NCBI GenBank assembly: GCA_002686955.1
Contig: NYZA01000261.1
Span: forward strand, 1-10,561
Source: Gemmatimonadota bacterium
Lineage (GTDB): Bacteria; GCA-2686955
Reading direction: 5' to 3'
Length of the DNA stretch: 10,561 nt
The notes below the pieces were generated by a model, which did no database searches, was not told the origin of the DNA, and worked only from the letters and a program-made list of their open reading frames with translations. Positions 1 to 10,561 of this stretch are shown piece after piece. The translations under genes and the position numbers were made by a program. Position 1 is the stretch's first letter; every line of letters starts with the position of its first letter.

Positions 1-550
1 AGGATCGGTCGAGATCGGATCGGGACTCGTGACACTGGATAGGAGCGACGAAATCGTCGGGCATCTGCGGATCACTGCTCCAATGAAGCTGATCGTAGAG
101 GGGCGAAGCGATACGCTGGATGTGGACCGTGTGGATGATGTGGATGAGGAGCTGCGAGAGATCCTGCTCGATCGAGTGCAGTCCGCGGCCATGGTGCTGC
201 GGGTCGCGAACAGCATACCGATCGGAGTGAGCATCGATGTCGGTCTCGACCCCGATTCCAGCGCTTCCATCTCGAATCCCGTAGTCAGACTTCCGGCCGG
301 GGGACCGCTCGAAGTCGACGCTCCGCGGATCGACGAAGAGGGGCGAGCCGTGGAGCCCGCCGTGGTCGTCAGGCGGATCGAGATCTTTCAGGACGATCTC
401 GATGCTCTATTTGGAACTGACATGTTCTTCGCGAGTACCAAAGCGAAACTCCAGAGCAGCGAGGGCCGAGAGATCTCGATTCGCGGTTCCGATACGATCG
501 AAATCGCCGCTCATCTCGAAGTCACCGCAACCATGGGGGCGATACGATGA
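1..550 (+). CDS. C-terminal part of an unknown beta-rich protein (5' truncated)
   Basis: The reading frame is open to the left edge. A GTG at 29 could be a start, but the in-frame residues before it (GSVEIGSGL) run smoothly into the same alternating beta pattern, so the true start is probably outside the window. About 183 residues are visible. They are dominated by short alternating hydrophobic/polar strands (VTLDRSDEIVGHLRITAP, VVRRIEIFQDDLDALFG) with many Asp and Glu and no membrane segment. Two helix-like stretches are seen, DVDEELREILLDRVQSA and FQDDLDALFGTDMFF. I do not recognise a family. The stop overlaps the start of the next gene (ATGA at 547-550), so the two are translationally coupled. 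Because that partner looks like an outer-membrane barrel, this protein may be an exported partner of the barrel; that is inference from position only. Confidence 0.75.
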   Translation, partial: GSVEIGSGLVTLDRSDEIVGHLRITAPMKLIVEGRSDTLDVDRVDDVDEELREILLDRVQSAAMVLRVANSIPIGVSIDVGLDPDSSASISNPVVRLPAGGPLEVDAPRIDEEGRAVEPAVVVRRIEIFQDDLDALFGTDMFFASTKAKLQSSEGREISIRGSDTIEIAAHLEVTATMGAIR

Positions 551-1743
551 ACAGACACCTGGCTGGTTGCTTGCTCGCCGCGGCTGTGTCGACGCTCTCG
601 ACCGGCGCGATCGGGGCGGTTCGATCGGCGGCGATGGGCGGCGTGGGTTTTCCCGACAGCCGGGGAATCGCTACGGTATTGTGGAATCCCGCCCTGCTCG
701 ACCGAGAAGACCGGCCGCCGTGGTCGGTTGCAGTGCTGGCTCTGGACGTGGAGTTGGGAAATTCGTCGCTATCACTCTCCGACTACAAGCGCTACAACGG
801 GGCGGTGCTCAGTGAGAGCGACAAATCGAGCATACTCTCGGCCATCGATGCGGATGGTCTCGAGACCTATGCCGCCGGCAGAGGCTTGTATCCCGGTGTT
901 CAGTACGGCTCCGCCGCCATCTTCGCGACGACGCGGGGAGCGGAGTCGGGAAAGCTGTCGAAAGCCGCTGTCGAGGCCGTTCTGATCGGCTTCGATCTGC
1001 GCGATGAGCTGGATTTGGCGGGGCAGGGGGAAGCGACGCTTTGGACCGAGATCGGCGTGGCGTACGCTCACCGCATCGGCGATGTGCAAGTCGGCGCGTC
1101 GGTGAAGCGCCTCTTTGGTCACTACACGATCAAGTCGTGGTGCGTGGGGGAGGTGACGCCGATTCTCGCCGACAGCGTTTTGAAATCGGTCGGAACCGAC
1201 GGTTCGGCCTACACGCGCGAAGCCGATGGCGGCGGGGGATGGGGCATCGATCTCGGGTTCGCCCGGCAGTGGGAAAGCACAACCCTCTCGGTCTCTGTCT
1301 CGAATCTGGTCGCTCAGATCGATTGGAGCGGCAACCCCTGGCTGCAAGGGGTGACCCACCGGTCCTCCGACCTGGTGGGGGAGGAGTTCCCCGAGGGCGA
1401 GGAGACCGATGAAAGTGTCGCGCCCTTCACCACCGATCTACCCGCGACTTGGCGTCTCGGAGCCGCCCATCGTCCGAGCCCGACCTGGACATTGGTTGCC
1501 GGCATGGTCAGAGATTCGGTTACGGGCAGCGAGCTGGGGCTGGGCTCCGAATGGCGAGGAGTCGACTGGCTGCCCCTGAGATTCGGCACGGCGCTGCATT
1601 CGGTGGATGGGATTCGCCTGAGCACCGGGCTCGGCTTGATCGTTGGGGGCTTCAACCTGGATTTGAGCGTTGGGCAGGGGAACGGGGTGTTCGGCGGGGC
1701 GAAGGGGGTTGGGGTAGGGGTTGGGGTGAGCTTCGCGCCTTGA
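547..1743 (+). CDS. Secreted outer-membrane beta-barrel protein, PorV/TraF-like (DUF5723-like)
   Basis: 398 residues, start ATG 547 inside the stop of the preceding gene. Residues 1-23 are a clear signal peptide (hydrophobic CLLAAAVSTLSTGAIGA, Ala-X-Ala-type cleavage before VRSAAMGG). The mature N-terminus MGGVGFPDSRGIATVLWNPALL matches in style the 'MGG-G-A ... NPA-L' start of PorV, UPF0164, TraF-like and DUF5723 proteins, all of them outer-membrane barrels related to FadL. The rest alternates in amphipathic strands (TLWTEIGVAYAHRI, VQVGASVKRLFGHY, WGIDLGFARQW, TLSVSVSNLV) separated by Gly/Asp turns, with a long acidic loop near residues 279-292 (GEEFPEGEETDES). It ends in a Gly-Val alternating strand (GVGVGVGVSFAP). 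The exact subfamily and any cargo are unknown. An inner-membrane or cytoplasmic role is unlikely given the signal peptide. Confidence 0.8.
   Translation: MNRHLAGCLLAAAVSTLSTGAIGAVRSAAMGGVGFPDSRGIATVLWNPALLDREDRPPWSVAVLALDVELGNSSLSLSDYKRYNGAVLSESDKSSILSAIDADGLETYAAGRGLYPGVQYGSAAIFATTRGAESGKLSKAAVEAVLIGFDLRDELDLAGQGEATLWTEIGVAYAHRIGDVQVGASVKRLFGHYTIKSWCVGEVTPILADSVLKSVGTDGSAYTREADGGGGWGIDLGFARQWESTTLSVSVSNLVAQIDWSGNPWLQGVTHRSSDLVGEEFPEGEETDESVAPFTTDLPATWRLGAAHRPSPTWTLVAGMVRDSVTGSELGLGSEWRGVDWLPLRFGTALHSVDGIRLSTGLGLIVGGFNLDLSVGQGNGVFGGAKGVGVGVGVSFAP
1704..1726 (+). other. Putative G-quadruplex (four G-runs, 2-nt loops)
   Basis: On the coding strand, four runs of guanine (five at 1704-1708, four at 1711-1714, 1717-1720 and 1723-1726) are separated by TT, TA and TT. 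This fits the G4+N1-7 rule with four tetrads and very short loops, so the mRNA or non-template DNA could fold into a stable quadruplex 15 bases before the stop codon of the barrel gene. The same bases encode the alternating Gly-Val final strand, so coding constraint alone may explain them, although the wobble positions are all G or T. Confidence 0.5.
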
Positions 1744-2282: not shown

Positions 2283-4643
2283 CTGTTTCGCTCGACCGCC
2301 GGAGCCCTGAGCCTGATCACTCTAATGGGCGCCGCGGCGTCCGTCGGCGTGCTTCGCGCGCATTTCGATCGCGGGTACGCGCCCGATCGGAGCCGCTGGG
2401 CCTTCAGCTTCCCCCGCGTGGAGGGTTATGAGGAGTGGGTCGGGCGCGGGAGGGGGGAGCACATGACCTGGCAGGAGCACACAGGTCGTTTCGTGCTGGA
2501 TCACTTTGGGACGCTGCGTCATCGGGACGCCACGACCATCTGGAAGCGATGTGAGGTGGAGATGCGCGTGCCCGATGCCCAGCTGGGCGTCGCGCTGTCG
2601 GGCGGCGAAGGCGATTCGGCCACGACTCTCGGTGTAGTGGTTCGCCAAGCAGGTGGCCAGGTGGAGCTGCAGCCGTGGAATCCCGAAGGGTCGGAGCCGC
2701 TGGGCACGGACCCCGACCCCTCGATGCCGTCCGAGCGCTGGCTTCAAGAGCCCGGGGCGACGCTCCATGTGGAGGTCCAGCTCGAGGGAGATGGGTCCGC
2801 CGTGGCGATCGGTTGGGGTGCCGAGGAGAGCTTCCGAATCCCCGCCCCGGAGGGTTGGCACCCTGATGCAATCCAGGTCTCGGTCGGAGAGAGGGAGGCC
2901 GAGATCCTCCAGGTTCGTGCGTGGGGCACGCGCCTGGATCGGTTCGCTTCGCCGGTCGTACTGGAAGAGGACTTCCGCTCACCGTGGCTCTCCGGCCCCA
3001 GGCAGCTCGCCCTTGCGCTTTTCGGGGCGCTGGGCATGGCGGGACTGGCTCTGGGCTTGGCGTGGCTCTGGGGCGCGTCGATGCGAGCCCCCATACCCTT
3101 CTCTCTGCGCCTCGACCCCCTCTCCTATCTCCCACTCCTCCCATTGGCGCTGATGGCGCCTCCTGTCGAGATCCAGCGCAGCGCGGAGCGGGGGGAGCTC
3201 GCCATGAGGCTCATCCCGCACGGCGTGCTCACTGTGGCGCTAGCGATCCTCGTGCTCAAGCTGGCCAGGGCCGGATTCGACCCTCGATGGCAACGAGCGT
3301 TTCGATTCCATCTCGAGGGGGCCCGCGGGCGTTCAGGAGCATCGAGGAGCTGGGTCTCGATCGCATCGATCGTGGGGATGGGCGCCGCCATCTATCTGGT
3401 GATTCTCATCCCTCAGCTCTCCACGCACCCTCGATTCTGGGGATCGATCGGCGCGACTTGGGTGATCTGGTCCTTGTCCTTTGCTCTCGGCACCGGCTGC
3501 CGATTGCTCTGGATCCTCGGCTCCGATCTTCTCGCCCTCTTCCCCGTGGCGCTGGCGGCCCTTCTCGGTTCGACATGGGAGGGAGGCGCCCCACATCTGG
3601 TCACGCGCACCCTCCCCCTCGTCCTCGGGATTCGTTGGCTCTGGGTCGCGGTCAACGAAGAGCGGCTCTCCTGGGCGCCCGTGATCCACCTGGTTCTGGC
3701 CATCTCGAGCGTCGGAGCCGTGGAGGTCGGCCTGCGCACGACGGAGATGTGGCGCCCCCTCCCGAGGAGCTACTCGAACGACAGCCTGCTCTTCTGGCGC
3801 TACGCGAGCGATTCGTACTTCAGGGCGCGCCCCAATCCATCGACCAAAGGCGGGGAGATCCGGCGGGTGATCTGCATAGGCGGATCGACTACCTTCGGCG
3901 GTGCAATCGCGGAGCCCGAAGAGGTCTATCCCTATGTTGCGGAACGGCTTCTGGTCGAAGCCGGAGCACCCTTCGAAGTGCTGAACGCGGCGGTGCCGGG
4001 CTTCTCTTCCTTGCAGGGGCGGCTTCTGCTCGAACATCGGCTCCTCGAGTTCGATCCCGACTGGGTGACGATCAGCTTCGGGGTGAACGACAGTCAGCAG
4101 GGGCAAGGGTCGGACATGGAACGATGGCTTGCGCTGTCCCGCCGCTCCCCGTGGCTGGTGACCCTTCAGGATGGGCTGGAGCAGTTTCACCTGTACGTGG
4201 GGCTCTCCCGCTTCCTTCGCTGGGGAACCCGAAACCTCGGCCGCTACTTCGGCGCGCAGGCCGACGCGCCCCCCCGCATCTCGCCCGAGGAGATGGCCAT
4301 CACTCTGCACGCGTTGGCCGAGCTGGGGCTGGAAGAGGGTTTCCGGATTGTACTCCTGCTCGAGTCCACGACCGATCTCCTCTCAGGTGACCCCGCGGGC
4401 GTCCATCCACTCCGTGGCTACTACCAAGCGATGGCCGCCGTCGCCGCCACCTGGGAGCATGTGGAGCTCTTGGACCCTTCCGGAGAATTGCTCCGGGCCC
4501 ATCGCGACGGGATTCCGCTCTTCGTGGACGACTGCCACCTGAGCTATGAAGGCCACGGCATTTTGGGCGAAGCGCTGGCACGCCTGCTGCTGCGAGGCGA
4601 GGAGGGGAGCGGGGCGGAGCGCAACAGGCTCCTAGCTCCTTGA
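2283..4643 (+). CDS. Polytopic membrane protein with C-terminal SGNH/GDSL hydrolase domain
   Basis: 786 residues from the CTG at 2283; 772 from the ATG at 2325. I prefer CTG because it has a well-spaced GGAG and restores a full hydrophobic anchor (AGALSLITLMGAAASVGVL, residues ~6-24) that the ATG start would cut in half. Domains (CTG numbering): anchor; residues ~40-225, beta-strand-rich and resembling a LamG-like or concanavalin-type sandwich (CEVEMRVPDAQLGVALSGG; LHVEVQLEGDGSAVAIGW); ~240-485, about eight membrane segments; ~525-775, an SGNH hydrolase. The catalytic blocks are clear: GGST with Ser535, the block II glycine in AVPGFSS, GVND with Gly600/Asn602, and DDCH with Asp749/His752. SGNH enzymes are esterases or acyl/acetyl-transferases. 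Fused to a membrane part and next to glycan genes, this one may O-acylate or deacylate a surface polymer (inference). It runs towards the minus-strand glycan operon and is not co-transcribed with it. Confidence 0.8.
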   Translation: MFRSTAGALSLITLMGAAASVGVLRAHFDRGYAPDRSRWAFSFPRVEGYEEWVGRGRGEHMTWQEHTGRFVLDHFGTLRHRDATTIWKRCEVEMRVPDAQLGVALSGGEGDSATTLGVVVRQAGGQVELQPWNPEGSEPLGTDPDPSMPSERWLQEPGATLHVEVQLEGDGSAVAIGWGAEESFRIPAPEGWHPDAIQVSVGEREAEILQVRAWGTRLDRFASPVVLEEDFRSPWLSGPRQLALALFGALGMAGLALGLAWLWGASMRAPIPFSLRLDPLSYLPLLPLALMAPPVEIQRSAERGELAMRLIPHGVLTVALAILVLKLARAGFDPRWQRAFRFHLEGARGRSGASRSWVSIASIVGMGAAIYLVILIPQLSTHPRFWGSIGATWVIWSLSFALGTGCRLLWILGSDLLALFPVALAALLGSTWEGGAPHLVTRTLPLVLGIRWLWVAVNEERLSWAPVIHLVLAISSVGAVEVGLRTTEMWRPLPRSYSNDSLLFWRYASDSYFRARPNPSTKGGEIRRVICIGGSTTFGGAIAEPEEVYPYVAERLLVEAGAPFEVLNAAVPGFSSLQGRLLLEHRLLEFDPDWVTISFGVNDSQQGQGSDMERWLALSRRSPWLVTLQDGLEQFHLYVGLSRFLRWGTRNLGRYFGAQADAPPRISPEEMAITLHALAELGLEEGFRIVLLLESTTDLLSGDPAGVHPLRGYYQAMAAVAATWEHVELLDPSGELLRAHRDGIPLFVDDCHLSYEGHGILGEALARLLLRGEEGSGAERNRLLAP
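4619..4635 (+). repeat. 17-bp direct repeat, copy 1
   Basis: GCGCAACAGGCTCCTAG, identical to 4682-4698 with a 63-bp period; it encodes the last residues (RNRLLA) of the SGNH protein. With the preceding bases it can form a small GGAGC/GCTCC hairpin (4616-4632) at the gene end. Confidence 0.7.
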
Positions 4644-4681
4644 TCCCGAAACGAACTCGAACACTGGGCTCGAAAGCCTAT

Positions 4682-4698
4682 GCGCAACAGGCTCCTAG
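4682..4698 (+). repeat. 17-bp direct repeat, copy 2
   Basis: Exact second copy in the 72-bp convergent spacer between the SGNH gene and the GT2 gene. The bases between the copies hold a small GGCT-CGAA-AGCC hairpin (4667-4678; UUCG loop when read on the minus strand), which could act as a weak bidirectional stop. There is no T-tract. It may be a partial tandem duplication of the SGNH gene end or a remnant of an inserted sequence. Confidence 0.65.
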
Positions 4699-4715: not shown

Positions 4716-5447
4716 TCAGCGACTCCGGTTTCGCCCCTTCGCGCTGCTCGCGGAAGGCATCGAAGGCGCGATTGGGCGAAACCGTGCCGTCACGATCCGC
4801 CTCACCGTCCACAGGCTGGTCTCGAGCGGGTTCATGACGCTCTCCCCGAGCCGAAAACGGTAGGCGATGTCGACGAAGCCGACCTTCATGCCACTCTTGT
4901 GCGGCAGAAGCAGCAGGTGCACCGGCTGGGCCGCGCCATTGAGGTTGTACTTCAGCCGCTCCGGCACCCCTCTCTTGTAGGCGCGCATGCCGCTGTGCAG
5001 GTCGCGGAACCGCTTGAAGAAGAGGATCGAGGCGAACATGGCGAAGATCCAGTTGCCCAGGTAGTTGATCGTTCGCATCGCTGCGGGCTTGCTCCGCAGC
5101 CGATTGCCGTCGACCACGTCGTAGCCCTCCTCGAGCACCAATCGGGCCAAGGTCTCGATCTGATCGACCGGGTAAGTGTCGTCACAGTCCATGGTCACGA
5201 CGACCTCGCGTTCGTTGGAACGCAGCGCCAAATCCATGGCTCGACCGTAGCCCCTGGGCGGATGCTGGCGAATCACCCGGGCACCGAGGGCTCGAGCGAT
5301 CTCGGGCGTCCGATCGTCGCTGGAATCAACCAGCACCACTTCGGCGGCGGGCAGGGCGGCTCTGATGTTGCCAATGACCTTGCCCACCGCCTCCTCCTCA
5401 TTCATGGAGATCATGGCGACTGTGATACGTTCGTCGATCGAGGGCAA
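4716..5447 (-). CDS. Family 2 glycosyltransferase, DPM1-like (polyprenyl-phosphate sugar synthase type)
   Basis: 243 residues from TTG 5447. GGAG at 5455-5458 sits 7 nt before this TTG and overlaps the end of the upstream gene (stop TAG 5452-5454), whereas the ATG at 5495 lies deep inside that gene without a clear ribosome site. The fold is GT-A: first strand and nucleotide loop ITVAMISMNEEEAVG (8-22), VVLVDSSDDRTPEIA (37-51), RGYGRAMDLAL (65-75), and the metal-binding motif MDCDDTYP (Asp87, Asp89, Asp90) where DPM1 relatives have MDADLQHP. DLHSGMRAYKRG (149-160) matches the acceptor-side 'D-x-x-SG-x-R' of this family. One hydrophobic stretch (YLGNWIFAMFASILFF, ~129-144) may lie on the membrane; there is no C-terminal membrane pair. 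It likely moves a sugar from a nucleotide to polyprenyl phosphate for the membrane transferase encoded just upstream. Sugar and lipid identities are unknown. Confidence 0.85.
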   Translation of the reverse strand: MPSIDERITVAMISMNEEEAVGKVIGNIRAALPAAEVVLVDSSDDRTPEIARALGARVIRQHPPRGYGRAMDLALRSNEREVVVTMDCDDTYPVDQIETLARLVLEEGYDVVDGNRLRSKPAAMRTINYLGNWIFAMFASILFFKRFRDLHSGMRAYKRGVPERLKYNLNGAAQPVHLLLLPHKSGMKVGFVDIAYRFRLGESVMNPLETSLWTVRRIVTARFRPIAPSMPSASSAKGRNRSR

Positions 5448-5451
5448 GCTT

Positions 5452-7335
5452 CTACTCCGGACTCGCCGGTTCACAGAGCAGCTCCTGCAAGCCACTCACG
5501 GCTTGGTCCGACTCCAAGAGTTCCCAAAGAGGGGCGAGTGTCGCGATTTCACAACGTTCGCAGAGCTTACCCGAGCGCCCGGGCATGAACTGCTCTCGCG
5601 GCGAGTCCCAAGGCATGCCAAGAGCGTCCAGCGTGAGCGCAACCCCGGCGTAGTAGAGTGGATCGGTGTACCTCCACCCGCGTCCGCCGGCGCGCTCCAC
5701 ATCGTTATGCCCGAGAAGGAAGCTATGGAGGAACTCCCGGTAGCGGTCGACGCCACTGTCGAGCCAGACAATCTGCTTGCGAGCCAACGGGCTGAGTGGA
5801 ACCACTTCCTCTCCGAGGTTCAACGGGATCGCATTGTAAGGGTCGAGGCCGCTGCTCCCTTCGAGCGGTGTGCCCAGGCCGTGGAGAAGGACTTCACGCT
5901 CCAACTGGGTCATCGGCAGGGAATCCAGAGCCGCCACCACTGGCTCGAGCGCTCGCTGATGGGGTCGGGCCATGCCGTGGAGGAAGATTCTGCGAGTGAG
6001 CTCACCAGAGTATTGCATGCCCTCAGACAGTGAATGGACTCCACCCATTCGTGACACCATCTCGAAGCGAGGAACGAGCATCGCGCCCAGTACCACGATC
6101 AGGATCCTCATCCCCTTGGAAGCGGGCGCCTTCGAGGAAGTGTCGGTCTTCCGGTATGAGAGCGCATGCGCGAGCTCCGGCAAACCCTGTCCGATCGTCC
6201 ACCCTTGCACGATCGCCAGCGGCGTGAAGAGTGGTATCAGATAACGCACCATGGTGAGCTCGGCGACGACCGCGATCAGAAGATACGATCCGACGAATAC
6301 AAGCGATAAAAATGTCACGAACCGTAGGTCTCGTGACGAGCTGTGCCACGCCAAGGCCGCGGCCAAGGGGAACCAGAGAAGGGATGTGCCGAACTCGTCC
6401 AATGCAAAGAGCGCTCCAGTCTCCATTGCGGGAGGAAGCGAATGGGCGCCTCGTTGCCACAGCATCGCTGCCTCGACAATTCGCCGCCCGATCGTCGCGG
6501 TCGGTTCCCCGGCCCAGAAAGGGCGCGGCTCCGAGGCGTAGGGAATGAAGATGGAGAGGATGTTCTCGGGAACGTAGGCAAACCAGAGCAACAACAATCC
6601 CGGGACCGATCCCAGCAACAACGGGCCGACCAGTCTCTTCCAAAATCGCACTCCGCGGCCCCTCGACACGAAGACGAAGCCGGCCGGAGCGAATACAGCG
6701 AGCCAAGCGTGGAACGACTGGCAGTAGTAGACGCCGATTCCCGCTACCAGGCCCAGAGCTCCAACACGCAGGCGGGCCGCCTCGAAGTCGCCCGAGAGCA
6801 ACGCGCGCCTCAGACGCAGCGACAGACCCAAGCTTGCCATTATGAAGAACGGGATCTCGGCATGATTGCCGCCGCATACGAGCGACAGCACAATGCTTGC
6901 CCTTGGTGGCACCGCCAGCAGGAGCCCGATACACATCGCTGCCCATCTCGAAACGCTTTCTCGCAGAGCCCAGTGCACGGTAATCAGGATGGCGATTCCC
7001 CACGCCAAGCTGACGGTCTTGAGCAACAGGTAGCTGGGGCCGGTGATCCGGGCGATGCTCGAGAAGATGAGGCCGTTGATGCGGCAGCCGCCATAGAAGG
7101 TGGCCCAGTCCCAGTCGGCGACCGCGCGGAGGAACCCCCAGGGACTCAGCGTTCGCAGGTGCTCGTCGAAGCCGAAGAACCAGTACTCGTCCTGGTGCGC
7201 GAAGCTACCGTTGGCGCTGAGCGCCAGCCAGATCCTCAAGGCGAGGTAGAGACCGACCGTCACCACGAGCCCCCCGATCTCCGCGCCGTCTACGCTGGAA
7301 ACGCGCCCCTTCGTCGTGGCCGAGTCGGAGGTCAT
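5452..7335 (-). CDS. GT39/ArnT-like integral membrane glycosyltransferase with soluble C-terminal tail
   Basis: 627 residues from ATG 7335, whose ATGA overlaps the stop of the upstream FAD gene. The first membrane segment (GLVVTVGLYLALRIWLALS, ~22-40) is followed by an extracytoplasmic loop with HQDEYWFFGFDEH: Asp49-Glu50 fit the acidic pair in the first loop of GT-C enzymes (PMT, ArnT, GT39/GT83). About ten further hydrophobic segments follow to residue ~423 (for example LLLKTVSLAWGIAILITVHW, LVFVGSYLLIAVVAELTMV, ILIVVLGAMLVP). Residues ~425-627 are soluble, with an LCERCE CxxC motif near the C-terminus and no recognised fold. Such enzymes take a sugar from a polyprenyl-phosphate donor and transfer it on the outer face of the inner membrane, which suits the DPM1-like gene immediately downstream. 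The acceptor (lipid A, polymer or protein) cannot be told. Confidence 0.75.
   Translation of the reverse strand: MTSDSATTKGRVSSVDGAEIGGLVVTVGLYLALRIWLALSANGSFAHQDEYWFFGFDEHLRTLSPWGFLRAVADWDWATFYGGCRINGLIFSSIARITGPSYLLLKTVSLAWGIAILITVHWALRESVSRWAAMCIGLLLAVPPRASIVLSLVCGGNHAEIPFFIMASLGLSLRLRRALLSGDFEAARLRVGALGLVAGIGVYYCQSFHAWLAVFAPAGFVFVSRGRGVRFWKRLVGPLLLGSVPGLLLLWFAYVPENILSIFIPYASEPRPFWAGEPTATIGRRIVEAAMLWQRGAHSLPPAMETGALFALDEFGTSLLWFPLAAALAWHSSSRDLRFVTFLSLVFVGSYLLIAVVAELTMVRYLIPLFTPLAIVQGWTIGQGLPELAHALSYRKTDTSSKAPASKGMRILIVVLGAMLVPRFEMVSRMGGVHSLSEGMQYSGELTRRIFLHGMARPHQRALEPVVAALDSLPMTQLEREVLLHGLGTPLEGSSGLDPYNAIPLNLGEEVVPLSPLARKQIVWLDSGVDRYREFLHSFLLGHNDVERAGGRGWRYTDPLYYAGVALTLDALGMPWDSPREQFMPGRSGKLCERCEIATLAPLWELLESDQAVSGLQELLCEPASPE
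5455..5458 (-). promoter_or_regulatory. Ribosome binding site of the GT2 gene
   Basis: GGAG on the minus strand, overlapping the last codons of the upstream gene and 7 nt before the TTG at 5447; it decides the start of the GT2 gene and implies translational coupling. Confidence 0.6.
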
Positions 7336-8714
7336 GTGGGCGTTGCTGTGGGACCATGGTTCCCGGCAAAGGCTGCACCGGCGGCTCGAGCTGTGGCGAT
7401 GGCCGCATCGGAATTGATGTACTCGAAGCGGCCGAATCTGCCGAGGCTGAGGATCCCGATGGAATCGAGCCAGGTCAGCACCCGATCGGTGTTGCGACGG
7501 TGGTGGAGATCGTAGACGACGTATGCGTAAGGGAAGGTGCGTGTCTCGCAGAAATTCACACTGTCGGCAGGCACCAGTCCCAAATGTTCGAGGCTCTGGA
7601 TCACCTGAGACGATACCTCCTTCGGGATCGAAACAGTTGTTTCATCAGGGCGAAAGGTGGTTTCGGCGAGAAGAGTGGATGTGCCCGCGATGCTATAGGC
7701 CGGACCCAGGAAATCGAGCTTGCTCACGCGATGAAACGACACATTCGGAGACGGAATCATGATGGCAAAATGGGGTCCGAGCCCATCCTCGTCGACGTTG
7801 AGCACCGTCACATGGATGGAATTGTAGCGAAGGCGGTGAAGCGCTTCGATCACGTCAGGTGGCGCCTGCGGCCGGATTCGGGGGACGAGCTCGTGCAAAG
7901 GGATCGTATTCACCAGGCTTGGAAAGTGTGCACGCGATCCTCCAGAGATCACTGTGAACTCACCAGAGCTCCCGATCTCAACGCGTTCCACCGGCGCCTG
8001 TGTTCGCACATCGACGTATTCCTTGCCGCGGGCAGCGAGGCCCCGGACCATCGATTCGATCCCCCCATCCGTCGGATACCAAAAGTGTAGCTGGTGAGTG
8101 TACCCTTCGATGTCCTCACCGGCGGCCGATCGTACGATGTGTTCGTCCGGCGGACGTGGGATGCGCTCGACCATCTGTATGTCCATTTGGACCGGGTCGA
8201 GCTTCCAGATTTTGCGATTGTACGGTTCGAGGTAGGTGCGGGTGATCCCTTCGCCGAAGACTCCTAGGAAGAACGAGAGCATGTTCTCGGCGGGAAGCTC
8301 GCGATGGGGATTGTTCAGAAAGGTGTCGAGACACCAATCTCGTTCGGAGTCCGGCAAAGCTGAAAGCTGATTCTCGAAGGGGTAGCGAACGAAGCGATTC
8401 CGATGCAGGATCTGATTCGAACGCTTGTGGCGCGTCATCGGAGTCAGGGCGCGCATGAAATCGGTGCGCTCCTGCGCTCCGGAAAAGACGATATGAGGCC
8501 CGATGTCGTGGTACAGCCCGTGGGACTCGAAACTGCGACACAGCCCGCCGACGCGATCTTCCTTCTCGAAGATCACCGCGGGAACTCCGGCGGCATCGGC
8601 GAACGCCAGCCCCGAGACACCCCCGCCGAGAATCGCCACCGGCGCCGACGATTGGTGGTTTCTACGAGCAGTCAATGGCGTTGCAGGTGAGATGGGCGAT
8701 GACCACGAACGCAT
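7332..8714 (-). CDS. FAD-dependent oxidoreductase, UGM/HemY (amine oxidase)-like
   Basis: About 460 residues from ATG 8714, which has a weak AGG six bases upstream. The frame extends to ATG 8756, and a TTG (8675) or GTG (8639) just before the Rossmann fold are alternatives, so the start is unsure. Any start upstream of 8662 overlaps the end of the SIS gene. The dinucleotide-binding motif VAILGGGVSGLAFA (Gly30, Gly32, Gly35) leads into VIFEKEDRVGGLCRSF, the glutamate binding the FAD ribose and the 'R-x-GG' motif of the UGM/protoporphyrinogen-oxidase/amine-oxidase group. HDIGPHIVF, EPYNRKIWKLDP and WYPTDGGIESMVRGLA also match this group; the C-terminal FAD motif is probably SLGRFGRFEYINSDAAIATA. 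Related enzymes in polysaccharide clusters include UDP-galactopyranose mutase; others desaturate lipids or pigments. The substrate is unknown. Its stop overlaps the next gene by 4 bases (7332-7335). Confidence 0.8.
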   Translation of the reverse strand: MRSWSSPISPATPLTARRNHQSSAPVAILGGGVSGLAFADAAGVPAVIFEKEDRVGGLCRSFESHGLYHDIGPHIVFSGAQERTDFMRALTPMTRHKRSNQILHRNRFVRYPFENQLSALPDSERDWCLDTFLNNPHRELPAENMLSFFLGVFGEGITRTYLEPYNRKIWKLDPVQMDIQMVERIPRPPDEHIVRSAAGEDIEGYTHQLHFWYPTDGGIESMVRGLAARGKEYVDVRTQAPVERVEIGSSGEFTVISGGSRAHFPSLVNTIPLHELVPRIRPQAPPDVIEALHRLRYNSIHVTVLNVDEDGLGPHFAIMIPSPNVSFHRVSKLDFLGPAYSIAGTSTLLAETTFRPDETTVSIPKEVSSQVIQSLEHLGLVPADSVNFCETRTFPYAYVVYDLHHRRNTDRVLTWLDSIGILSLGRFGRFEYINSDAAIATARAAGAAFAGNHGPTATPT

Positions 8715-9222
8715 CTTCAGCCTGCCGAAGATCGCGAGTCGGAACATGGATCGCATGATGAGCGGCGGTCCGCAAACGCCCGCCGGTCAGACCGCACACT
8801 CCGAAGGTGGTGGCCCCCGCCGCTTTCGCCAGCGCAACGGCCCGAATGACACTCTCCGAGTCACCACTGCCCGAGAAGGCGATGACCAGATCCGCCTCCC
8901 CGACGAAATTGCGCAGCTGTTCGGCCATGGCGTCGCCGTAGTCCACGTCGTTGGCATAGGCCGTCAGAGTTGGCGTGGATTCGTTCAGGCAGAGGGCACG
9001 GAAAGGGATCGAGTGACGGTTGCTCAAGGTCTTGTTCAGATCGCAGGCAAGGTGCGACGCCACCGCCGCCGAGCCGCCGTTGCCCATCACGAACACCGTT
9101 CGACCCCTCTGTCGGGCCTCGAGCAAGGCGTCGACCAGCGCCTCGATCGGTGGCAAGTCGAGCCGTGCGATGAGCTCGCTTACACCGTCTCGATAGGCCT
9201 GCATCGTCTCTCGCATCGTCAT
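8662..9222 (-). CDS. SIS-domain sugar-phosphate isomerase, GmhA-like
   Basis: 186 residues from ATG 9222, chosen over ATG 9264 because AGAGG (9228-9232) lies 5 bases before it and a -10-like box sits just upstream at 9270-9275. The length fits sedoheptulose-7-phosphate isomerase (~190). Phosphosugar-binding motifs are clear: GNGGSAAVASHLACDL (47-62) and FSGSGDSESVIRA (116-128), with a typical SIS ending (AIHVPTRDLRQAEDAFVVIAHLTCN). GmhA converts sedoheptulose 7-phosphate to heptose 7-phosphate, the first step to ADP- or GDP-heptose. Aligned by eye to remembered E. coli GmhA, catalytic Glu65 becomes Asp61, Gln172 becomes Glu169, and His180 is kept as His177. It may therefore be a divergent heptose isomerase or act on another sugar. 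The nearby GmhB-like gene favours a heptose role. First gene of the four-gene run to 4716. Confidence 0.8.
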   Translation of the reverse strand: MTMRETMQAYRDGVSELIARLDLPPIEALVDALLEARQRGRTVFVMGNGGSAAVASHLACDLNKTLSNRHSIPFRALCLNESTPTLTAYANDVDYGDAMAEQLRNFVGEADLVIAFSGSGDSESVIRAVALAKAAGATTFGVCGLTGGRLRTAAHHAIHVPTRDLRQAEDAFVVIAHLTCNAIDCS

Positions 9223-9226
9223 GGGG

Positions 9227-9233
9227 ACCTCTT
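9227..9233 (-). promoter_or_regulatory. Ribosome binding site of the SIS gene
   Basis: AAGAGGT on the minus strand, with its AGAGG core 5 nt before ATG 9222; it supports that start over the upstream ATG at 9264. Confidence 0.6.
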
Positions 9234-9269
9234 GGGGGCGTAGCGCGGCTCCATTCCTCTGCATGAAGG

Positions 9270-9463: not shown

Positions 9464-10561
9464 TCACACCCGCCTCGAGGCATCGCTCGACCCGACGATC
9501 AGATCGGCTCCGGTCCGCTGCTTCCGCACCGCCGGCCACTCCTCGGATCGTCGCCGTCGCAGGGTCGCGGCAATCTCGCCGGCGGGACACCCCTTCCAGC
9601 GATAGAAGGCGCGGGTTCGTGCCTCGACGATTTCGTCGGCGGCCTCCACGTAGACCAAGGCATCGATCAGATGCTGTAGCCCACTCGAACCGGCCAGCAC
9701 GCCGTCGAGGATCACTACTCCGCGCGAGGGGGCGGTGTATCGCACGATCCGTCCACCTCGGCGATCGTGGGGATCGTAGCCCGGCGCTTCGACAGTCTCT
9801 CCCCCCAGTAGGCGGCGCGCGATCTCCGGCATCGACGCCGACTGCGTTCGTTCCGCCACGGTCGATTCAGGAGCACGTTCCTTTCTCGGCACGATCCAGT
9901 CGTCGAGCCGAACGTGCAGGGTCTCGATGCCCTTTCGTCCGAGGGCCGTGCGCAACGCATGGGCGACCGTGGATTTGCCCGTCCTGGAGATCCCTGACAC
10001 CGCCACCAGCTTCGGTCGCTGGGATGGGGCATCCTGGGCCAGGCGCGTGGCCAGGATCTCCACCTCGGGCACTCCGTGCACCACGAAGGCCGTCGCCTCG
10101 TTGACATCGTCGAAGATCAGATCGGGGGGCTCGATTCCCGGTGGCAGCAGCCGACTTCCCTCGCCGGTGCGCACTCCGTACACCGCCACTCCCATGCTCC
10201 GACCAGCTCCGAAGTCGCGCCAGCTATCGCCGATGATGCAGCTCCGGCCCAGGTCGACATTCAGATCGGTCGCCGCCCGCACCAAGAGGCCGGGTGTTGG
10301 CTTCCTGCACTCGCACGCCCCCTTGAGCTCGGTCACCTCGTCCTCGTGGCCCGCCTCTGGGTGATGGGGACACCAGTAGATTCGATCGAGCTTTGCCCCC
10401 GCGCGCCCGAGATCGGTCTCGAGACGCGCATGAATGCTCTCGATCACTTCCCGCGAGGCGAACCCCTTCGCCACCTGCGGCTGATTGGTGACCAAGACCG
10501 CCAGGAAACCCGCGTCGTTCGTGCGCCGCACCGCCTCGGCGGCCCCATCGATCAGGCAGAG
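9464..10561 (-). CDS. GmhB-like HAD phosphatase fused to a uridine-kinase-like P-loop kinase (5' truncated)
   Basis: 365 residues are visible; the frame runs off the right edge. A GTG at 10531 is in frame, but residues before it (LCLIDGAAEAV) continue the HAD fold, so the true start and the nucleophile motif DxDGT are outside. Visible HAD part (numbered from the edge): LVTNQPQVAKG (motif II, 23-33), zinc loop CPHHPE...CECRKP (Cys64, His66, Cys83, Cys85; motif III Lys87) and GDSWRDFG (motif IV, 111-118). The CxH...CxC zinc loop is typical of GmhB, which removes the 7-phosphate from heptose 1,7-bisphosphate. From ~183 a second domain begins: LVAVSGISRTGKSTVAHAL (Walker A GISRTGKST, 190-198), RLDDW (218-222, like the SFDDFY of uridine kinases) and VVILDGVLAG (282-291, the VILEGIL position). 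It looks like a small-molecule kinase of the uridine kinase/phosphoribulokinase family; the substrate is unknown. A 241-base gap separates it from the SIS gene. Confidence 0.75.
   Translation of the reverse strand, partial: LCLIDGAAEAVRRTNDAGFLAVLVTNQPQVAKGFASREVIESIHARLETDLGRAGAKLDRIYWCPHHPEAGHEDEVTELKGACECRKPTPGLLVRAATDLNVDLGRSCIIGDSWRDFGAGRSMGVAVYGVRTGEGSRLLPPGIEPPDLIFDDVNEATAFVVHGVPEVEILATRLAQDAPSQRPKLVAVSGISRTGKSTVAHALRTALGRKGIETLHVRLDDWIVPRKERAPESTVAERTQSASMPEIARRLLGGETVEAPGYDPHDRRGGRIVRYTAPSRGVVILDGVLAGSSGLQHLIDALVYVEAADEIVEARTRAFYRWKGCPAGEIAATLRRRRSEEWPAVRKQRTGADLIVGSSDASRRV

Follow-up and report, generated by a model that had tools for sequence, protein, structure and literature searches.

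A recurrent, unannotated fusion of a GmhB-like phosphatase and a PRK/Udk-clan kinase in putative heptose-activation gene clusters

At the end of the analysed contig lies an open reading frame (ORF) in which a GmhB-type HAD phosphatase is fused to a PRK/Udk-clan P-loop kinase, and this combination is a real, recurrent and unannotated domain architecture. Judged by its relatives among root-nodule and soil bacteria, the full protein is most probably a three-domain enzyme, rare and conserved, with the order NTP_transferase (HddC-like)-GmhB-kinase, and it can likely be regarded as an HddA-type heptose-activation enzyme variant that carries an additional PRK/Udk-clan kinase. The window, i.e. the whole stretch of DNA that was analysed, corresponds to the entire contig C261 (10561 bp) of a MAG of 4.28 Mb, which consists of 270 contigs and is 84.5% complete. 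The fusion ORF has no start codon, its 5' part being cut by the contig end. An earlier note on this DNA had described a GmhB-like phosphatase fused to a Udk-type kinase, with a GmhA-like isomerase next to it; the fusion is borne out by HMM, profile and structure matches and by its recurrence, and the neighbouring isomerase is confirmed as a SIS-domain gene (Table 1).

Table 1. Features of the window discussed in the text, with their coordinates and the supporting observations.
Feature	Position	Strand	Basis
Fusion ORF, C-terminal 365 residues	9464..10561	-	single open frame, 365 codons
GmhB-type HAD-IIIA phosphatase domain, residues 1-162	10076..10561	-	NF006506 1.2e-33; TIGR01656 above cut-off
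Cys/His (zinc-type) loop C-x-H-(16)-C-x-C, residues 64-85	10307..10372	-	invariant across aligned fusions
PRK/Udk-clan P-loop kinase domain, residues 178-365	9467..10030	-	profile and structure matches
Walker A GISRTGKS, residues 190-197	9971..9994	-	aligned with UCK2/Udk P-loop
Asp220, motif LDxW, UCK2 catalytic base position	9902..9904	-	invariant in fusions
GmhA-like SIS-domain isomerase	8662..9264	-	follows fusion; H64, H183 kept
FAD-dependent amine-oxidase-like oxidoreductase	7332..8756	-	PF01593 2.5e-15
627-aa protein, membrane-protein-like composition	5452..7335	-	no Pfam/NCBIfam match
GT2 glycosyltransferase, dolichyl/polyprenyl-phosphate hexose type	4716..5495	-	NF041391 6.6e-55

For the phosphatase half, residues 3-160 of the ORF match the GmhB/histidinol-phosphatase models, with NF006506 at 1.2e-33 and TIGR01656 at 92 bits (cut-off 84), as well as PF13242 at 1.8e-12. 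The equivalog cut-off of NF006506 (178 bits) is reached neither by the truncated window protein (116 bits) nor by the full-length Bacteroidota protein L004 (175 bits), and all proteins fall below the NCBI equivalog cut-offs except for TIGR01656 and TIGR01662. From these profile matches, the HAD domain appears assignable to GmhB at the subfamily level only. It shares 45-56% identity with the HAD domains of the other fusions, and C64, H66, C83 and C85 of its loop are invariant in those aligned. The full-length relatives carry the DxD nucleophile motif as DRDG or DCDG, the window's copy lying beyond the contig end.

The kinase half is recognized more distantly by its Pfam model: PF00485 matches residues 178-356 at 8.6e-4 with the whole ORF, and at 22.2 bits, against a cut-off of 22, with the half alone. 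A profile of seven kinase halves matches the solved Udk/UCK/PRK/PanK chains with E-values ranging from 1e-14 to 1e-8 (1rz3, 1.2e-14; 3w8r, 5e-13), and the AlphaFold model aligns with PanK, UCK2, Udk and PRK at Z values of 13-16. The two-domain model was chosen, the kinase-only one being poorer (pLDDT 63); its kinase core reaches a pLDDT of about 80-90, with weak loops. The sequences of the window, Rhizobium, Bacteroidota and G642 all retain Walker A and the aspartate. Asp220 aligns with D62 of UCK2, the catalytic base of that enzyme, and the DHP motif of UCK2 belongs to the uridine-binding site. The fusion kinases also keep the PxY motif and the acidic-Gly strand, and possess a peculiar lid signature, YxWKG/YxWRG. 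The DHP motif and His117 of UCK2 are missing in every fusion kinase aligned, and the kinase half scores 24 bits with TIGR00235, the cut-off of which is 220 bits.

Among nine Rhizobium orthologues, dN/dS amounts to 0.20 for the kinase and to 0.10 for each of the other domains. The value of 0.20 indicates that the kinase is under selection for function, less tightly than its neighbours, with a rate of evolution about twice that of the other two domains. In Polyangium sp. 6x1 (L006 5068-6954), the kinase domain is found without its middle part, and it is possible that the domain is decaying in this isolate genome.

Public genome scans returned relatives from Bacteroidota (L004, L005, and L091 in genome G440), from Myxococcota (Polyangium L006, and L090 in genome G642) and from plasmids of Rhizobium (L064, L065, L069, L070, L097, L098-L102). 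The full-length relatives comprise 630-700 aa and three domains, namely a nucleotidyltransferase (PF00483), a GmhB phosphatase and the kinase; the N-terminal domain of L004 matches the HddC model NF049965 at 2e-23. The identity of the window ORF to these proteins is 36-41% over ~360 aa where measured, and the ORF is collinear with the last two domains of the Rhizobium protein (41% over 367 residues). The N-terminal nucleotidyltransferase is present in all full-length relatives, and the corresponding region of the window protein lies beyond the contig end. By analogy with its relatives, the lost part would consist of a nucleotidyltransferase domain resembling HddC, followed by the first ~30 HAD residues, including the DxD motif. 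The N-terminus had already been noted as missing, and the relatives now reveal the third domain that was overlooked; the window's own copy was not recovered, the search of the MAG yielding only nucleotidyltransferase matches of 28-31% and a stand-alone GmhB.

The kinase domain occurs on 55 Rhizobium plasmid records, where the annotation, if given, is 'HAD-IIIA family hydrolase'. In the phylum of L004 one further genome (G440) among 395 sampled carries the fusion, and in that of Polyangium, at the same threshold, 1/188 (G642). The count of 0/385 in the Alphaproteobacteria class sample, which may omit the Rhizobium plasmid species, says merely that the gene is patchy, although it is widespread on Rhizobium plasmids. 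The fusion is absent from the other genome of the window's phylum (two genomes in all), no relatives were found among viral contigs, and the phage search gave a single weak match. In the literature searched, with subscription journals outside its scope, no description of the fusion was found, nor was any match to an already described bifunctional family whose substrate is known, a finding that the earlier note had named as one that would refute its proposal.

In the kinase tree, the fusion kinases form one clade among the 35 sampled (support 94/93; 96% of bootstrap trees). The window is grouped with Polyangium and Rhizobium in the HAD tree (96/88) and likewise in the kinase tree (94/84). The simplest reading is that the fusion arose once and then travelled between phyla, with the caveat of long branches and some weak joins. 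The HAD tree is compatible either with a loss of the kinase from the two-domain proteins or with their never having had one.

An HddA-type GHMP kinase directly follows the fusion, and a GmhA-like SIS gene lies near it, in five of the other loci with an intact kinase domain (L004, L005, L064, L090, L091); L064, L090 and L091 additionally have an SDR epimerase/dehydratase ahead of the fusion. The GHMP kinase of L004 matches HddA (NF049969, 3e-49), and the Rhizobium GHMP protein matches solved heptose kinases (3k85, 8e-45). The SDR/fusion/GHMP layout recurs in Armatimonadota (L007) and Verrucomicrobia (L008, L018) with two-domain nucleotidyltransferase-GmhB proteins that lack the kinase; in L009 and L010 such proteins stand ahead of GHMP. 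The kinase profile detected no separate kinase gene near any of these five (L007-L010, L018). The kinase-less versions in the same layout, together with the HddA genes beside the fusions, indicate that the kinase is an optional extra on an HddA-type heptose-activation module, rather than its usual 1-kinase. Consequently, the idea of a variant route put forward earlier stands in part: the fusion does sit in a heptose-type gene set, but a general replacement of the PfkB or GHMP kinase by its kinase is not supported, since HddA adjoins five fusions and kinase-less versions exist. On other contigs, the window genome encodes a stand-alone GmhB as well as an HldE that scores 352 bits, above cut-off, and on this ground the fusion would belong to a second module.

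In Rhizobium, a conserved nine-gene cluster (L064 2808-14279 and its plasmid equivalents) contains genes for SIS, GT2, a 656-aa protein, a flippase-like protein, SDR, the fusion, the GHMP kinase and two oxidoreductases. No description of it was found in the literature searched. Its GT2 is of the polyprenyl-phosphate type and the 656-aa protein resembles a membrane protein. Only the fusion, the GT2 and the SIS of the window are related to Rhizobium genes at a detectable level, the two GT2 proteins sharing 36% identity over 159 aa; the 627-aa protein of the window takes a similar cluster position to the 656-aa protein, with no BLAST similarity between them.

Further along the window, an ORF of 772 aa at 2325-4643 (+) encodes a long hydrophobic stretch followed by a C-terminal SGNH/GDSL hydrolase domain, and a 17-bp direct repeat, GCGCAACAGGCTCCTAG, with copies 63 bp apart, lies at its end (4619-4698). 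A DUF5723 (PorV-like) outer-membrane-type protein is encoded at 547-1743 (+). At 1756-1817 there is a 25-nt near-perfect inverted repeat, TAGCCCGCATATCTCACCAACTTTC, the core of which occurs 72 times in the MAG (<=2 mismatches), compared with once for the reversed control. Several inverted pairs of this repeat are 151 bp apart and many copies lie at contig ends. Such pairs look like a MITE-like element of ~175 bp, of which the window copy appears internally deleted.

The SIS protein of the window retains H64 and H183 of B. pseudomallei GmhA, with the replacements D61->V, E68->D and Q175->E. Loss of D61, the E68->D replacement and a change at Q175 are shared by the SIS genes of the window, L004, L064, L090, L091 and L006; in the cluster proteins His64 is kept and His183 mostly so, while Q175 is mostly E, and V in Rhizobium. 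This pattern suggests that the GmhA-like proteins of the fusion clusters form a distinct isomerase subfamily. By homology the module is probably heptose-like, and the three active-site changes imply that its sugar may not be sedoheptulose 7-phosphate.

Taking these observations together, we tentatively favor, at somewhat less than even confidence, a three-domain enzyme of a second HddA-type module with the kinase as a feeding or salvage kinase. The module would supply NDP-heptose to a lipid-linked surface-glycan system, and its GmhA-like, HddA-like, GmhB and HddC-like steps would act serially, as expected from family knowledge (S7P -> heptose 7-P -> 1,7-bisP -> 1-P -> NDP-heptose). The fused kinase would phosphorylate the primary hydroxyl of a free heptose, ketose or related polyol, which is the least certain part of the scheme. 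Its product would be a 7-phosphate, either newly entering or returning to the route, on which the isomerase and HddA act; the kinase would be tethered to the enzymes that finish the activation. Uridine kinase, PRK, PanK and glycerate kinase act on primary hydroxyls, and to our knowledge no known member of the clan acts on an anomeric hydroxyl; since the primary hydroxyl of a heptose is O7, the feeding or salvage role is preferred. A broader version, in which the fused enzyme is a PRK/Udk-clan sugar kinase whose reaction, new to sugar-nucleotide metabolism, supplies or substitutes for the initial phosphorylation in a route of heptose type, and in which the altered isomerase uses a substrate other than sedoheptulose 7-phosphate, seems rather doubtful.

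It is unlikely that the phosphate added by the kinase stays in the product, as part of the NDP-sugar or glycan residue, or that the kinase acts on a polyol linked to this glycan. The arrangement of the kinase in cis with a nucleotidyltransferase, with glycosyltransferase and flippase-like genes nearby, would fit such a role, and the C. jejuni HS:5 capsule contains heptose and glucitol-6-phosphate, by a different pathway (PMC10918830); the GmhB domain of the same chain, however, would oppose a 7-phosphate. A structural, regulatory or decaying domain that is not catalytic in the pathway is a little less credible again. Taking into account the dispensability of the domain in related operons and the gap in L006, the kinase may be non-essential or decaying, and its absence from the two-domain relatives and faster evolution point the same way, but the preserved Walker A and aspartate and the dN/dS of 0.20 argue against a non-catalytic role.

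A replacement of HddA by the fused kinase as sugar 1-kinase in the window organism is quite improbable. The gene downstream of the window fusion is a SIS gene and not a GHMP kinase, and the search for HddA in the MAG, which is 84.5% complete, gave none, the best match being a weak GHMP on another contig (28% identical, E 2e-6). Against this, five other loci with intact kinases have HddA beside the fusion, known members of the clan phosphorylate primary hydroxyls and are not known to act on the anomeric one, the MAG is incomplete, and the upstream side is cut. UCK2 and Udk are among the closest characterised folds, but a true uridine kinase is ruled out by the missing motifs and low scores; a nucleoside or nucleotide kinase feeding the adjacent nucleotidyltransferase is very improbable as well, given the lack of DHP and His117 and the separation of the clade from the stand-alone kinases sampled. 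As the contig is a MAG fragment ending within the ORF, one might suspect that two separate genes were joined locally by the assembly. The likelihood of this is negligible: the same junction recurs in many independent records, 55 Rhizobium plasmids and other genomes carry it, and the HAD and kinase trees agree on the partners. The two halves were not found as separate genes in near relatives, which the earlier note had named as a refuting observation.

In root-nodule bacteria, the fusion would mark a dedicated activation module of heptose type, and it would place a PRK/Udk-clan kinase inside a sugar-nucleotide pathway. The enzyme, present on at least 55 Rhizobium plasmids and scattered among Bacteroidota and Myxococcota, bears only the label 'HAD-IIIA family hydrolase', which conceals two further domains. 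Expression and knock-out are feasible for the Rhizobium versions, which makes the kinase question directly testable.

Among known systems, the heptose route of C. jejuni relies on Cj1424, Cj1425, Cj1152 and Cj1423 as separate genes, with no extra kinase mentioned in the passages on the pathway (PMC10680097). Homologues of all four activities are found together in the operons of the fusion relatives; unlike the C. jejuni proteins, the fusion carries phosphatase and nucleotidyltransferase in one chain, plus the PRK/Udk-clan kinase. The LPS and capsule heptose routes of C. jejuni are separate (PMC10680097), which offers a parallel for the fusion as a second module beside HldE/GmhB. The two-domain NTP_transferase-GmhB proteins of Verrucomicrobia and Armatimonadota (L007-L010, L018) have the same first two domains, with GHMP next, and differ in the missing kinase domain, with SDR upstream in L007, L008 and L018. 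With the UCK2/Udk/PRK/type I PanK clan (3w8r, 1udw, 6kev, 1sq5) and the putative kinase 1rz3, the fusion kinase has in common the fold, Walker A, the catalytic Asp and PxY, whereas it lacks DHP and His117, has its own YxWKG/YxWRG lid and is joined to GmhB. Sugar kinase and nucleotidyltransferase activities are also combined in single chains in HldE and in FKP (fucokinase/GDP-fucose pyrophosphorylase); the kinase is PfkB-type in HldE and GHMP-type in FKP, and neither has a HAD phosphatase, unlike the fusion. In polynucleotide kinase-phosphatase (PNKP), a HAD phosphatase precedes a P-loop kinase, and L004 matches PNK3P weakly (9e-4, below cut-off). A PNKP-like repair enzyme is nevertheless ruled out: the HAD part of the fusion is GmhB by all models, the chain carries an extra nucleotidyltransferase, and the operon is of the sugar-nucleotide type.
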